Assembly: GCF_016862095.1 (NCBI RefSeq)
Contig: NZ_BOMH01000004.1
Span: forward strand, 62,001-126,000
Direction of reading: 5' to 3'
Source: Actinoplanes cyaneus
GTDB taxonomy: Bacteria; Actinomycetota; Actinomycetes; Mycobacteriales; Micromonosporaceae
DNA length: 64,000 nt
Positions 42,766-62,379 of the stretch are shown here, in pieces; position 1 is the first letter of the stretch, and every line of letters starts with the position of its first letter. Under the pieces are notes generated by a model that was not told where the DNA came from, ran no database searches, and saw only the letters and a list, made by a program, of their open reading frames with translations. Made by a program: the position numbers and the translations under genes.

Positions 42766-42769
42766 CGCG

Positions 42770-43696
42770 ATGTCAGTCCTGGAAGATCTCGGCGCCCAGC
42801 TCCGGGCCGCCTCGGGCGAGTTGCCCGACGGGCTGGTCGTCAAGGCCATGGAGAAACTGCGCGCCGCCACCGAGCTGCTGAACTGGGTGCGTGAGGCGTC
42901 CGAGCAGAAGATCGGCGTGCCCGAGCTGGGTAACGCGACCGAGCACGCCGAGCGGGCGGCCGCCGCGCTGCGCCTCGCCGAGGACGCGATCGAGGCCTAT
43001 CTTGCCGTGCTCGGTCTCGGCGGGGTTCCCGGCGCGCCACGTGGCCAGGAGTGGCGCGAGTCGGTGCGGCCCGACGAGCCGCGCGAGCCCGCGGAGTCCG
43101 GGCCGCGGCCGGAGACGCCGGAGCGTCTGGGTCCCTGGTGGCAGGCGCGCGTCGCCGAGCTCACCGGCGAGCCGGCCCCGGAGCGGAGCGGCGACCAGCC
43201 GAGCGGGGATCAACAGGGCGGGGATCAGCGGGCCGGGACCACCGGCACCGCAGATCTGCTGCGCCGGGTGGCGGCCGGGGTCCGCGCCGGCGACCGGGCC
43301 CGCCTCGGCCGTGAGCTGCACGGCGTGAACGCCGCGACCGGCCTCGGGCTGTCCGCGATGACTCCGCCGGTCCTGCACCGGCTCGCCGGCGACCTGCTCG
43401 GGCACGAGCCGCGCCCGGAGGACGTGCCCCGGCTGCGCAGCGCCGCCGAGGGCCGGGTCCGGTCGCTGCTGCCGGGCACCTCGCCGGCCGTGCTGGAGAC
43501 GCTGATCGACCGGATCTGCCGGGTGCCGGCGACCGAGCGAGGCGACCGGCCGGCCCCGCACCCGGCGGACAGCGCGGTGACCGCGAGCGTGCTGACCGGG
43601 GTGCTGCTGGCCCGGCTCGGCCGGGACGCGGACGCGCTGGACCCGAGCGCACCGGAACCCGTGCGTCCTCGGGAAGAGGCCGGTGAGCAGGCTTGA
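42770..43696 (+). CDS. Uncharacterised 308-aa protein of the FtsK-like operon
   Basis: Hydrophilic protein without membrane segments: a helical N-terminal 90 residues (LEDLGAQLRAASGELPDGL; AERAAAALRLAEDAIEAYLAVLG), a charged Gln/Gly/Asp linker with short repeats (SGDQPSGDQQGGDQRAG near 145), and an Ala/Arg/Leu-rich helical C-terminal half (LLRRVAAGVRAGDRARLGRELHG; VLHRLAGDLLG). The start is 4 nt after the previous stop. No known domain. It likely forms a complex with the neighbouring gene products. Confidence 0.88.
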   Translation: MSVLEDLGAQLRAASGELPDGLVVKAMEKLRAATELLNWVREASEQKIGVPELGNATEHAERAAAALRLAEDAIEAYLAVLGLGGVPGAPRGQEWRESVRPDEPREPAESGPRPETPERLGPWWQARVAELTGEPAPERSGDQPSGDQQGGDQRAGTTGTADLLRRVAAGVRAGDRARLGRELHGVNAATGLGLSAMTPPVLHRLAGDLLGHEPRPEDVPRLRSAAEGRVRSLLPGTSPAVLETLIDRICRVPATERGDRPAPHPADSAVTASVLTGVLLARLGRDADALDPSAPEPVRPREEAGEQA

Positions 43697-43738
43697 TGAT
43701 CTCACGGGGCAGGGTAACGACGACGATTCCGGCGGGCC

Positions 43739-46453
43739 ATGACTGAGTCCACGAAACAGCAGGTCGTGGAGATCCGGACCGGGCTGTCCCACGCCCTCGG
43801 CGCCGCGGGGCACGCTCTCGCCGACGCCGAGCACGAGGCGGGCGAAGCGACCACGCGCTGGGAGCGGATCCGCGCCGCGGCACAGAGCCGGGAACGCAAA
43901 CTGGCCGCCGCGCGCGACGAGCGGCTGCGCTCGATCGACGAGTGGCACGACACCGAGCTCGGCGCGCTGGCCGGGGCGGCAGCCGGCGCGGCTGACCGGG
44001 CGGCGCCCGGCGCGGCCGGCGAGCCGTGGCATTCGTGGGAGCCGACCCCGCTGGCGAAGCCGGCCGAGCTGCGGATCGGGCGGTTGCTGCTGCCGGCCGC
44101 CCCCGCGCCGGCGGCCCCGGCCGAGCCGGGCCGCCCCTGGCCGTGGGACGAGGACGCGACGGTGTCCCCGCCGCCGGAGTCCCCCGAGGTGCCGGCATTG
44201 GTGCAGCTGCTCGACCACGGGCACGTCGTCGTGCAGGGCGACCGGAAACTCGGCGACGACGTGGTGGCCGGTCTGCTGCTGCGTGCGCTCGGGACGAGTG
44301 TGCCGGGCACGGTGCAGGTGATCGGGTACGACCCGGAGCACCTCGGCGGCGGGCTGGCCGGGTTCGCCGCGCTCGCCCCGCCGCGGGTGCTCACGTTCGT
44401 CGCGCCGAACGCGTTGTCCCAGCTGCTCGACGACCTGGTCGGGCACGTACGGCGGATCAACGAGACGGTGCTGGCCGGGGAGTACTCCTCGCTGCGCGAG
44501 CTGCACGCGGCCACCAAGCGCCGGCCGGAGCCGTGGCGGGTCGCGGTGCTGCTCGGCGCCGGCGAGCTGAACCGGCACGAGCGTACCCAGCTGGAACGCC
44601 TGCTGCGGACGGGTGCGGCCTGCGGAGTGCACCTGATCGTCCACGGGCTGCGGGTCGACCCCGGGCCGGGGATCGAGTGCGTCACCGCCGCCCCCGGCAA
44701 CGACGCGCGGATGAGCAGCGGCGGTGACCTGCTGATCCGTCTCGACCCCGGCCCGCCGCCGGCCGTGCTCACCGCCACGTGCCGGCAGATCGCCGAGGCC
44801 GTCGCGGCCGGTCCCGCCCCGGTCGCGCTGGACAGCCTGCTGCCCGACGAGAGCGAGGAATGGCGGGAGAGCTCGGCGAACGGGCTGACCGCGCCACTGG
44901 GCGACAGTCCGCAGGGCACCCGGGTGCAGGTCACGCTCAGCGACTACCCGCCGCACGCGCTGATCGCCGGGCCGTCCGGCACCGGCAAGACGAACCTGAT
45001 CTACGCGTGGATGGGCGCGCTGGCGGCCCGCTACTCCCCCGCCGAGCTGGCCTTCTACCTGCTCGATTTCAAGGAGGGCGTGTCGTTCGCCCGCTTCGCG
45101 CCCGGCCGCCGGGACCAGAGCTGGCTGCCGCACGTCCGGCTGGTCGGGGTGAACGTCAACACCGACCGTGAGTTCGGCCTGGCGCTGCTGCGCTTCCTCG
45201 GCGCGGAGCTGCGACGGCGGGCCGACGCGGCGAAACAGCACGAGGTCACGAACCTGGCCGAGCTGCGCGCGGAGAACCCGGAAGGCGTCTGGCCACGGAT
45301 CGTCGCCGTCGTCGACGAGTTCCAGGTGCTGCTCTCCGGGCGGGACGCGGTCACCACCGAGGCCGTCGACCTGCTGGAGGACCTGGCCCGCCGCGGCCGC
45401 TCGCAGGGCATCCACCTGATCCTGGCCAGCCAGGACATCTCCGGCATCGAGGCGCTGTGGGGCCGCCCGGCGCTGGTAGCCCAGTTCACGCTGCGGATCG
45501 CTCTGCCCCGGGCCCGCCGGGTGCTCGCCGAGCAGAACACCGCCGCCGAGTCGCTGCCCCGCTACCACGCCGTGGTCAACTCCGACTCCGGGGCGACCGA
45601 CGCGAACCAGATCGTGCGGGTGCCGGCCGCCGGGGACCGCGAGCAGTGGAGCGCGCTGCAGCACCGGCTGTGGCGCCGGCTGCCCCCGGGCGAGCTGCCG
45701 CCCCGCCTCTTCGACGGCGACGTGCAGCCCAAGCTCGACAGCAGCCCCGACTTCCGGGCGCTGGTCGCCGAGGACTCCCCCGCCCCGGTGGCGCTGCTCG
45801 GCGAAACGATCGACGTGATGTCCCGCTCCGGGCGGACCGTGCTGCGCCGCGCGCCCGGCCGCAACCTGGCCGTGCTCGGCACCCGCGTCGAGGAGGCCTG
45901 CGCGGTGCTGGCGACCGCCGGGCGCTCGCTCGCCGCCCAGTTCAGCCGGGACGGGGCACGCTTCTCGATCGCCTGCTTCGACCCGGACGCGCGGCCCGCC
46001 GCCGAGGCGCTGCACGCCCGGATCCCGGACTGTGGATGGTACGACGCGTCGAACGTCGACTGGCTCCTGGAGGACGCGGCCGCCGAGTCCACCGCGGCGT
46101 GGCCCGCCGACCGGCCGCACTTCATCCTGCTGTACGCCGCGGACGCGCTCCCCGGTGGCAAGGCGACCCTCGACCACCTGCGGACCGTGCTGCGACAGGG
46201 CCCGGAACGCCGGCTGCACGTGCTCGGCTGGTGGCGCGGCGCCGGGCTGCTGCGCGACACGCTCGGCGGGCCGGGCTCGCGCACCGACCCGATCGGCGCG
46301 TGGGTGGCGCTGGACGTGCACGGCAGCGAGCTCGCGCCGTTCTACCCGGGGACCGGGGCGCCGAACTGGTACCCGCGGCCCTGGCGGGCGCTCCACTTCG
46401 ACCGCTCGGTGCACCGCGGCGCCGAAGTGATCATTCCGTACGGTGCCTCATGA
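43739..46453 (+). CDS. FtsK/SpoIIIE-EccC-like ATPase
   Basis: 904-aa cytoplasmic ATPase. An N-terminal coiled coil (about 1-75) and Pro/Ala linker lead to an N-terminal Rossmann-like region, then the FtsK domain with Walker A AGPSGTGKTNL near 410, Walker B RIVAVVDEFQVLL near 520 and sensor-like LILASQD near 560. The C-terminal third (about 690-900) looks like a second, degenerate ATPase repeat in which the P-loop position reads LGTRVEEA. No N-terminal membrane helices, unlike chromosomal FtsK; tandem active/degenerate domains resemble EccC of type VII secretion. The stop overlaps the next start (ATGA). The Shine-Dalgarno is weak. Confidence 0.9.
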   Translation: MTESTKQQVVEIRTGLSHALGAAGHALADAEHEAGEATTRWERIRAAAQSRERKLAAARDERLRSIDEWHDTELGALAGAAAGAADRAAPGAAGEPWHSWEPTPLAKPAELRIGRLLLPAAPAPAAPAEPGRPWPWDEDATVSPPPESPEVPALVQLLDHGHVVVQGDRKLGDDVVAGLLLRALGTSVPGTVQVIGYDPEHLGGGLAGFAALAPPRVLTFVAPNALSQLLDDLVGHVRRINETVLAGEYSSLRELHAATKRRPEPWRVAVLLGAGELNRHERTQLERLLRTGAACGVHLIVHGLRVDPGPGIECVTAAPGNDARMSSGGDLLIRLDPGPPPAVLTATCRQIAEAVAAGPAPVALDSLLPDESEEWRESSANGLTAPLGDSPQGTRVQVTLSDYPPHALIAGPSGTGKTNLIYAWMGALAARYSPAELAFYLLDFKEGVSFARFAPGRRDQSWLPHVRLVGVNVNTDREFGLALLRFLGAELRRRADAAKQHEVTNLAELRAENPEGVWPRIVAVVDEFQVLLSGRDAVTTEAVDLLEDLARRGRSQGIHLILASQDISGIEALWGRPALVAQFTLRIALPRARRVLAEQNTAAESLPRYHAVVNSDSGATDANQIVRVPAAGDREQWSALQHRLWRRLPPGELPPRLFDGDVQPKLDSSPDFRALVAEDSPAPVALLGETIDVMSRSGRTVLRRAPGRNLAVLGTRVEEACAVLATAGRSLAAQFSRDGARFSIACFDPDARPAAEALHARIPDCGWYDASNVDWLLEDAAAESTAAWPADRPHFILLYAADALPGGKATLDHLRTVLRQGPERRLHVLGWWRGAGLLRDTLGGPGSRTDPIGAWVALDVHGSELAPFYPGTGAPNWYPRPWRALHFDRSVHRGAEVIIPYGAS

Positions 46454-46569
46454 GCGAATCCTCGGGCTCGGTCCTGAACTCCTGGCGGCGTGATCGAGCT
46501 GCGAGTGAGTCATCAGGCTCGGTATTGGCCTCATGGCAACGCCGGAGAGCAGCGGAGGTGGCGGCATGA
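46450..46569 (+). CDS. 39-aa tandem-duplicated micropeptide in the FtsK-like operon
   Basis: The whole peptide is two 17-residue units, SESSGSVLNSWRRDRAA and SESSGSVLASWQRRRAA, plus EVAA. ATGA overlap with the ATPase stop and ATGA overlap with the next start make it fully coupled. Fourteen of 17 positions are identical between units, yet 10 of those 14 use different synonymous codons, so the peptide sequence appears to be selected rather than a recent DNA duplication. Its codons (GAA, TCA, GTA, TTG, AGA) are unlike those of its neighbours. Possibly a cargo, docking peptide or regulator of the ATPase; unknown. Confidence 0.7.
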   Translation: MSESSGSVLNSWRRDRAASESSGSVLASWQRRRAAEVAA

Positions 46570-47267
46570 GCGATCTGCAACCGGCCGACTTCGACCGGGC
46601 CGACTACCGGACCGTGCTGCGCCGGCTGACCACGCTGGACCAGCGGGCCGCCCGGCTGCGCGCCGAGGCCGAACAGTGGCACACCGACCAGCGCGCGACC
46701 GCCGCCGAGGCCGTGCGGGACGCCGAGACTCAGGTGCGGGCCGCCCGGCAGGCGGTCAAGAAGGCGCGGCGCGACCTCGAGGAGGTCGACGCGCGGGCGG
46801 CCGGGCTCTGGGCCGAGTACGTGCACCGGGTCGGGGCGGTCGCCGAACGCTTCGGGAAACTGCCGCCGGCCGGCATCCCCCGGCAGCGCGCCGACGAGCG
46901 GCCACCCGGCGAATACCTGGCCGAGGTCGAGAAACGGATCAAGTGGACGCCGCCGGCGCGGCCGATCACGTTCGGCGTCAAGGTGCTCTTCGTGATCTTC
47001 GGGCTGGTGGGCGGGATCCTCGGGGCGATCGGCAACCAGGTGCTGCGTGAGACCGGAGCGGCGGCCATCGGGGACTGGCACCAGGCCGCCCCGGTCGTCG
47101 CGCTGCTGGTGCTGCTCGCCTGCCCGGTCCTCGCGGTGGTCGCGGCGAAACTCGTCGCGGACCGGCGGAAGACCGGGCTCGACACGGCTGCGGTCGTGAC
47201 CGTGCTCGGCACGGGGCTGGTGACCGCGATGCTGCTGTTCACGGCGGTGCAATACGCCGGCTCCTGA
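46566..47267 (+). CDS. Coiled-coil membrane protein, last gene of the FtsK-like operon
   Basis: 233-aa protein: N-terminal coiled coil (about 10-95, RRLTTLDQRAARLRAEAEQW...VRAARQAVKKARRDLEEV), a conserved-looking linker with Pro/Arg, then three membrane helices near 138-160, 170-192 and 205-230 (VKVLFVIFGLVGGILGAIG; VVALLVLLACPVLAVVAAKL; AVVTVLGTGLVTAMLLFTAV). It could be the membrane anchor or pore component for the soluble FtsK-like ATPase. Start overlaps the micropeptide stop (ATGA). No family recognised. Confidence 0.9.
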   Translation: MSDLQPADFDRADYRTVLRRLTTLDQRAARLRAEAEQWHTDQRATAAEAVRDAETQVRAARQAVKKARRDLEEVDARAAGLWAEYVHRVGAVAERFGKLPPAGIPRQRADERPPGEYLAEVEKRIKWTPPARPITFGVKVLFVIFGLVGGILGAIGNQVLRETGAAAIGDWHQAAPVVALLVLLACPVLAVVAAKLVADRRKTGLDTAAVVTVLGTGLVTAMLLFTAVQYAGS

Positions 47268-61989: not shown

Positions 61990-62379
61990 TCAGCTCCCCG
62001 CCGGGCCCGCGATCGCCACCGTCACCCCGTCGACGATCCGCTTGGGCAGCAGCAGCGACGCCTGCGCCCCCGCCGCGAGCAGCGCCGCGGCCTCGGCAAC
62101 GCTCGGGGTGCCGACCGCCGCGGCCACTCGCCCGCTCACCGCCGCCAGGTCATGCCCCGCTGCGGCCCCGGCCAGCTCGGTGGCGCTGAACGCGGCCAAG
62201 CGCCACCCGAAGCTCCCGGCGAGCACCCGCATGCCGGGCTCGGCGGCCCGCCGGTCCAGAGTCGCCACGACGCTCACCCGCGACCGCTCCACCCCGGCCG
62301 CGACCAGCGCCGCTTCCACCGCACCGGCCAGCAACGCCGGGCCGGTGCCCGGGCGAGCCCCCACGCCGACGGCGATCAC
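61990..62379 (-). CDS. Cobalamin biosynthesis protein, CbiG C-terminal domain (CobE-like)
   Basis: 129-aa protein corresponding to the CbiG_C/CobE domain, which in CbiG helps open the delta-lactone ring of cobalt-precorrin-5A and as CobE is essential in the aerobic pathway. Motifs: IAVGVGARPGTGPALLAGAV at the N-terminus, VSVVATLDRRAAEPGMRVLA and VAEAAALLAAGAQASLLLPK. GTG 62379 overlaps the cobB stop (GTGA). Third gene of the cobO-cobB operon in this window. Confidence 0.9.
   Translation of the reverse strand: MIAVGVGARPGTGPALLAGAVEAALVAAGVERSRVSVVATLDRRAAEPGMRVLAGSFGWRLAAFSATELAGAAAGHDLAAVSGRVAAAVGTPSVAEAAALLAAGAQASLLLPKRIVDGVTVAIAGPAGS

Follow-up and report, generated by a model that had tools for sequence, protein, structure and literature searches.

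The 64,000-nt window analyzed here, positions 62,001 to 126,000 of Actinoplanes cyaneus contig NZ_BOMH01000004.1, has a 39-codon open reading frame (ORF) at 46450–46569, lodged between the genes for an FtsK/SpoIIIE-type ATPase and a coiled-coil membrane protein. The ORF is built of two similar 17-residue units, and the locus raises the question of whether it encodes a conserved micropeptide of this operon or has another origin. We believe, with a probability of about 0.78, that this ORF represents two decayed tandem copies of a mobile translational-coupling leader element resembling the mycobacterial interspersed repetitive units (MIRUs). By comparing sequences, we could demonstrate dispersal of the element, empty sites in relatives, constraint on the ORF, switching of its reading frame, and covariation.

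The 39-codon ORF and its orthologous junctions

The ORF translates to MSESSGSVLNSWRRDRAASESSGSVLASWQRRRAAEVAA and a stop codon. Its start ATG (46450) is overlapped by the TGA of the ATPase gene, whose ORF ends at 46453, and its terminal ATGA (46566–46569) opens the membrane-protein frame; the coordinates therefore bear out the ATGA overlaps on both sides that the original prediction, made from the letters of the window, had described. Orthologues use the position of 46566 as the membrane-protein start, and the ORF list also offers a longer start at 46533. A recount likewise gave two 17-residue units with 14 identical residues, 10 of them with different codons. The codon use was also rightly described as unlike that of the neighbors, as the GC content at third codon positions (GC3) is 0.625 in the 39-codon ORF versus 0.949 in the ATPase gene and 0.936 in the membrane-protein gene. 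The features of the locus are as follows.

43739–46453, + strand: FtsK/SpoIIIE-type ATPase gene, 904 aa (Pfam FtsK_SpoIIIE, E 5.5e-23); its TGA lies within the ATGA at 46450–46453
46450–46569, + strand: probable inserted element array, a fused 39-aa leader ORF running from ATGA to ATGA (from the translation and the empty orthologous junctions)
46450–46490, + strand: putative remnant of copy 1, with an in-frame loss of 12 nt close to the 5′ end and without ~25 nt of the 3′ end, which holds the hairpin and Shine-Dalgarno sequence (aligned by eye to complete copies)
46490–46569, + strand: putative copy 2, 80 nt, 1 nt missing on the 5′ side, 3′ module kept (profile match L001, window coordinates converted by hand)
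46453–46503, + strand: 17-codon unit 1 (codon comparison)
46504–46554, + strand: 17-codon unit 2 (codon comparison)
46531–46543, + strand: predicted 5′ arm of the 3′ hairpin, TCATGGCAACGCC (stem pairing; covariation in relatives)
46557–46569, + strand: predicted 3′ hairpin arm, GGTGGCGGCATGA, which includes the downstream start codon (in the window copy, 10 of its 13 positions are paired)
46554–46559, + strand: GGAGGT, Shine-Dalgarno-like, 6 nt before the downstream ATG
46566–47267, + strand: downstream coiled-coil/membrane-protein gene, 233 aa counted from the 46566 ATG (curated Pfam families gave nothing above the cut-off)

Next, we turned to the same junction in other genomes. The C-terminal part of the ATPase was matched in all 67 genus genomes, with at least two matches in each, indicating paralogues. 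From these genomes, orthologous junctions were inspected at 30 loci, including that of the window genome (G000). At 24 of the 30, the ATPase stop directly overlaps the membrane-protein start (22 ATGA and 2 GTGA), so the ancestral junction was most likely empty. G034 has a TGATG overlap, likewise with nothing between the genes. G000 holds the element pair, G089 holds a short spacer, and G019 and G021 retain short insertions, of which that in G019 ends in GCGGAGGTGGCGGCATGA and resembles the element tail. G080 (L129) has a different, independent insertion at this junction, accompanied by an unrelated spacer. None of the 30 loci yielded an orthologous copy of the window insertion. Of the 29 loci other than the window's, that of G032 is the nearest, with 96.6% identity over 557 ATPase residues and 86.8% over 220 membrane-protein residues, and its junction is empty. 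The case for exact insertion at NTGA, with vacant sites in related genomes, comes from this single locus.

The original prediction had taken the ORF for a conserved operon micropeptide and had named absence of the frame in close relatives as the observation that would speak against it. The frame is absent from the equivalent interval at 24 of the 30 loci, including G032, and the units more probably derive from tandem copies of a mobile element.

A dispersed element with an open leader frame

A search of 60 relatives with the peptide (E ≤ 1) found 42 matches in G021, from the same genus, and 11 in the window genome, counting the window itself; the weak rows are noise. The better matches fall mostly on the second unit, and some lie in tandem at a 77-nt step. 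Complete copies share one element, ATGAGCGAGCTTGCGAGCGAATCATC...GAGCGAAGCGGAGGTGACGACATGA, of 81 nt from ATG to TGA; tandem copies have 4 nt in common, so the step is 77 nt. For the family sample, 120 regions from 35 genomes were combined with the earlier loci, yielding 213 unique copies, of which 190 are full-length. The 23 of 213 without a full-length match were dropped, as were duplicate contexts and sites whose first or last member was partial. The sampled copies are the best-scoring rows, and strongly decayed copies are under-sampled. The full-length copies measure 81 nt (152 copies), 84 nt (27), 80 nt (6), 82 nt (2), and 76, 78, and 87 nt (1 each).

These copies occupy 148 distinct sites, 118 of them single, 26 double, 2 triple, and 2 quadruple, so that 30 of 148 are tandem. 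By a heuristic based on GC3 and stops, a downstream coding-like frame begins at the terminal start codon in 144 sites and an upstream frame stops at the first TGA in 127; both hold, with co-directional genes, in 123. The end quads run from ATGA to ATGA at 135 of the 148 sites. Unlike end quads occur at 12 (8 GTGA/ATGA, 3 ATGA/GTGA, and 1 ATGA/TTGA) and bear on target-site duplication versus ends carried by the element itself. Measured by 5′ anchor, the tandem steps are 2 mod 3 in 24 of 28 cases; 13 are 77 nt, and the others include 74, 80, and 116 nt and single odd ones. Further steps of 65, 89, and 95 nt were read off match positions.

The genome searches scored only part of the candidates, and all match counts are lower bounds. 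At E ≤ 1e-5, there are at least 13 matches in the window genome, and at least 35 of the 67 genus genomes bear matches, with up to at least 23 in one genome. At the same threshold, at least 153 of 300 family genomes have matches, across 18 of 44 genera. At E ≤ 1e-4, at least 58 of 298 order genomes match, 20 of them outside the family and many of these over the first 25–30 nt only; the 84-nt form matches at least 26 of 394 class genomes, the window genome included, and a 69-nt form at least 74 of 297 genomes of genus g8. An exact scan of named genomes for the 5′ anchor found at least 119 stretches, in Actinoplanes, Micromonospora, Phytohabitans, Pseudonocardia, Amycolatopsis, Saccharothrix, Nocardia, Nocardioides, Kribbella, Streptomyces, Kitasatospora, Nonomuraea, Nakamurella, Mycolicibacterium septicum, Acidimicrobiia MAGs (metagenome-assembled genomes), and others. 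With the 84-nt consensus as query, plasmid (E ≤ 1e-3) and phage (E ≤ 1e-2) collections gave no match. In the open-licence literature, no description of the element family was found outside mycobacteria.

The ORF from the first ATG or GTG through the terminal stop is intact in 181 of the 190 full-length copies. For the codon and stop analyses, we excluded 9 of the 152 81-nt copies, a subfamily with a compensated frameshift within the same 81 nt. None of the 134 unique 81-nt copies has a stop in the leader frame, where 36.4 (standard deviation 4.8, minimum 22 in 300 runs) would be predicted by column-matched random substitution; the other two frames have stops in 78 and 45 of 134. The 84-nt lineage carries the element core in another frame, and it too has no leader-frame stops (0 of 23, with 5 and 10 in the other frames). 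Long spurious frames are common in the window and lend some color to a chance micro-ORF in GC-rich DNA. A many-copy family at gene boundaries, under constraint on both ORF and hairpin, makes chance almost certainly the wrong explanation.

We then asked which frame the conserved DNA occupies. Of 284 unique copies with an intact ORF, 118 have the core GAATCA in frame 0 and 101 in frame 1, and in 65 it was not located; the TCAT arm lies in frames 0, 1, and 2 in 113, 15, and 45 copies, and was not located in 111. Since lineages read the same DNA cores in different frames, it is the ORF, not the peptide, that is kept. Such lineages offer a natural experiment that sets selection for translation against selection for the peptide. 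The family-wide synonymous fraction is 0.318 versus 0.269 expected. By region, it is 0.550 versus 0.273 expected in codons 2–8 and 0.276 versus 0.300 in codons 17–26, and several codons between 9 and 16 are hypervariable. We infer that the peptide is close to neutral across the family. The synonymous excess of the two units, on which the idea of a selected amino-acid pattern in the window ORF was built, is real (10:3, an outlier in the family) and does not extend to family-wide selection on the peptide. Such ORFs can pass for conserved micropeptides in surveys of small ORFs, as happened here.

A further set of copies was picked by the 5′ anchor alone. Among the matches listed, 109 of 129 have an ORF shorter than 60 aa, and all 109 end in an [AGT]TGA stop/start overlap (97 ATGA, 11 GTGA, and 1 TTGA). 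In a comparison frame, 36 of the first 85 anchor copies reach a stop within 60 codons, and 20 of these 36 are [AGT]TGA. In the first 69 short-ORF anchor copies, a coding-like frame follows in 63 of 69 and an upstream frame ends at the TGA in 50 of 64; 59 of 69 have a loose Shine-Dalgarno match, a count without a control set. Inspection by eye shows in-frame fusion of the 5′ element part to the downstream gene at L344, L348, L356, L366, L376, L403, L411, and L437, yielding MSELASESS-like N-terminal extensions. Decay of the element may create new N-termini and misannotated start sites. At L355 and L369 (Actinophytocola and Pseudonocardia), short-core repeats lie head to tail within one ORF (SERASESSTQG and RELASESSAQ).

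The hairpin over the downstream start codon

In the predicted fold of the 3′ half of the consensus, an internal TCAT pairs with the terminal ATGA, and the stem also takes in part of GGAGGT. Mutual information with average product correction, computed over the 134 81-nt copies, ranks the pairs 51-73, 47-77, and 48-76 at 4, 14, and 66 of 3003 column pairs, and 47-77 alternates G-C with C-G. We then compared pairing in the stem with the maximum of 300 partner shuffles. It exceeds that maximum at 0.949 versus 0.920 (128 copies) and 0.909 versus 0.862 (41 copies), and in two more lineage classes at 0.892 versus 0.862 (13 copies) and 0.984 versus 0.937 (18 copies). Left out of these stem counts were 81-nt copies without TC at 43-44 and 84-nt copies without TCAT-like arms.

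Across 105 diverse copies, the mean pairing probability of the terminal ATGA is 0.53 versus 0.31 after interior shuffling, and an exact internal complement of at least five terminal bases is present in 53 of the 105 versus 0.198. Some of these complements, mainly in Pseudonocardia, hit the 5′ core TCATC and not the 3′ arm. Two copies with a GTG start carry the matching change in the other arm (L359 and one g8 copy), and four others pair only as G.T. Relatedness of the copies inflates all of these hairpin counts. A second hairpin at the 5′ end, pairing the first ATGA with a TCAT near position 22, was dropped by eye, as the fourth base of that TCAT varies.

Taken with the site structure, these features suggest how the element may work. 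It would insert at NTGA start codons, mostly at stop/start overlaps, as many filled sites and one empty-site comparison indicate. A ribosome finishing the upstream gene at the TGA would restart on the overlapping ATG and translate a leader of ~26 codons. This translation would open the 3′ hairpin that masks the next start codon and part of GGAGGT, and the ribosome would then stop at the terminal TGA and restart on the downstream gene. Insertion would leave the operon translatable and would therefore be tolerated. Selection would maintain an end-to-end open leader and the hairpin, with the peptide mostly free to change. On this model, many actinobacterial operons would contain such an insertion, one that may tune the co-translation of two proteins and whose copy number can vary.

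The hairpin and ATGA ends could also serve transposition and not translation, with a single-stranded hairpin recognized by a Y1/RAYT-type enzyme. Insertion at a fixed tetranucleotide with an adjoining covarying hairpin fits this proposal. We consider it unlikely, as Y1_Tnp is not associated with the element in the genus (in a hand tally, 11 of 35 element-bearing and 9 of 32 match-free genomes have it) and the stop-free ORF frame would be left unexplained. A Y1/RAYT transposase as the mobilizer was set aside on the same absence of association.

The two window units and related systems

Compared codon by codon, the two units of the window have 4 identical, 10 synonymous, and 3 non-synonymous codons out of 17, and 17 of 51 nt differ. 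Among 8911 pairs of dispersed copies, not one has as many as 10 synonymous differences in the corresponding 17 codons, a comparison that is post hoc because the original prediction picked the locus for its synonymous pattern. Tandem neighbors at other sites (32 pairs) show 13 synonymous versus 27 non-synonymous codon differences in total.

By eye, the window step is 77 − 26 = 51 nt, or 17 codons. Deletions that shifted the step from 77 to 51 nt would thus have fused two leaders in frame into the 39-aa ORF, with one 3′ module left. Judged by this alignment, the 17-residue units are the product of deletions that left an in-frame fusion of two worn element copies. A blastn search with the element consensus (E ≤ 10) did not have the window copy among its matches, with 40 of 47 candidates scored. 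At fourfold sites, the membrane-protein gene differs at 36 of 140 between G000 and G032, and the two units at 6 of 9, which are small numbers. Since the units are the more diverged, the copies were perhaps unlike on arrival, or an older insertion has disappeared from G032.

The 10:3 split is either a rare draw picked post hoc or a sign of local selection on the fused peptide. Such selection would amount to domestication, in which the mobile leader gained a peptide-level role at the window locus after its copies fused. The synonymous outlier itself is in keeping with this, as are comparisons with near family copies, in which unit 1 differs from L042 by 5:0 synonymous to non-synonymous codons and unit 2 from L032 by 5:3. 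At other copies just as close, the ratio is 3:2 for unit 1 and either 4:4 or 3:5 for unit 2. Furthermore, just 13 differing codons are involved, picked post hoc, and in the 30 orthologous loci the window insertion has no counterpart, only a different insertion in G080. We regard domestication as rather doubtful. A conserved functional micropeptide of the ATPase/membrane-protein operon, its units kept alike by amino-acid selection, can draw on the same 10:3 split and on the synonymous excess in family codons 2–8. It is highly improbable, given the 24 of 30 loci with no intervening peptide, the frame switches of the shared DNA cores between lineages, and the non-synonymous majority between tandem neighbors elsewhere.

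Several observations weigh against a mobile leader element, and the standing of the 10:3 split as a family outlier is one of them. The copies share descent, so the counts are of non-independent events. At 21 of the 148 sites, no upstream frame ends at the element; some of these have a decayed copy upstream and some have no gene in phase. The exact ORF is lost in 9 of the 190 full-length copies, and 20 of the 129 anchor copies lack a short ORF, their frames being longer or off the contig, with many in-frame fusions by eye. The folding energy is ordinary, with z scores of −0.82 for the window, −0.01 for the 81-nt consensus, and −1.60 for the 84-nt consensus. The stem holds only 2 of the top 30 mutual-information pairs, at an effective number of 11.7 sequences. 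Within it, positions 51/73 are a purine-purine mismatch that toggles between A.G and G.A (61 and 48 of 134 copies) in place of a standard pair, and 48-76 is G.G in 33 of 128. Finally, the first three stem classes were selected by their TC or TCAT 5′ arm; the outer pairs are therefore built in, and only the inner pairs inform.

The mobile leader element, which we favor, has relatives in architecture. The original paper on MIRUs is reportedly that of Supply et al. (1997). Repetitive extragenic palindromic (REP) elements and REPINs are short, dispersed, hairpin-forming sequences that lack a transposase of their own and are linked to RAYT. The present element is likewise short and dispersed, with a hairpin and no transposase of its own; unlike REP elements and REPINs, it sits on start codons with an open ORF and is not extragenic without coding constraint.

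In excerpts of PMC12548453, MIRUs are apparently mobile repeats with an insertion site at start codons and an internal ORF coupled at −4 nt. Units of 77 bp and 53 bp lie between senX3 and regX3, and MIRUs are restricted to M. leprae and the M. tuberculosis complex, according to excerpts of PMC4213456; those of PMC4128351 place MIRUs in 5′ untranslated regions of M. bovis. The family described here shares with these accounts a short interspersed unit at many loci per genome, the start-codon position, an internal ORF coupled to the next gene (PMC12548453), with ends that here overlap the stop and start codons of its neighbors, and tandem 77-bp copies, the 77- and 53-bp units being 2 mod 3 like most steps here (PMC4213456). 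It differs in occurring in many actinobacterial genera, whereas the excerpted account describes MIRUs as mycobacterial (PMC4213456), and in having lineage-dependent peptide frames and a start-codon hairpin supported by covariation. The family thus appears MIRU-like in architecture, a likeness drawn from descriptions and not from sequence alignment. More tentatively, and at somewhat less than even odds, a superfamily of mobile translation-coupling cassettes may span Actinomycetota, with mycobacterial MIRUs perhaps a branch. Each would be a ribosome-gated start, an ATGA-to-ATGA leader with a free peptide, switched in frame more than once, and with a hairpin that keeps the next start closed as long as the leader is untranslated.

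A further parallel is the bicistronic design of synthetic biology, in which, as excerpts of PMC5995908 have it, a short first cistron stands ahead of the expressed gene. In keeping with a translational-coupling leader, the leader ORF here overlaps the downstream start and has the Shine-Dalgarno sequence inside it (GGAGGT in the window). The present leaders differ in being natural and dispersed, with a hairpin that would gate the second start.

The remaining annotation of the window was sparse. The 39-aa peptide has no Pfam match, Rfam at the gathering score gave no matches in the whole window and 14 copy-bearing loci, and a tRNA/tmRNA scan of the window found none. A 309-aa frame without a Pfam match precedes the genes for the ATPase and the coiled-coil membrane protein, the three together spanning 42767–47267.

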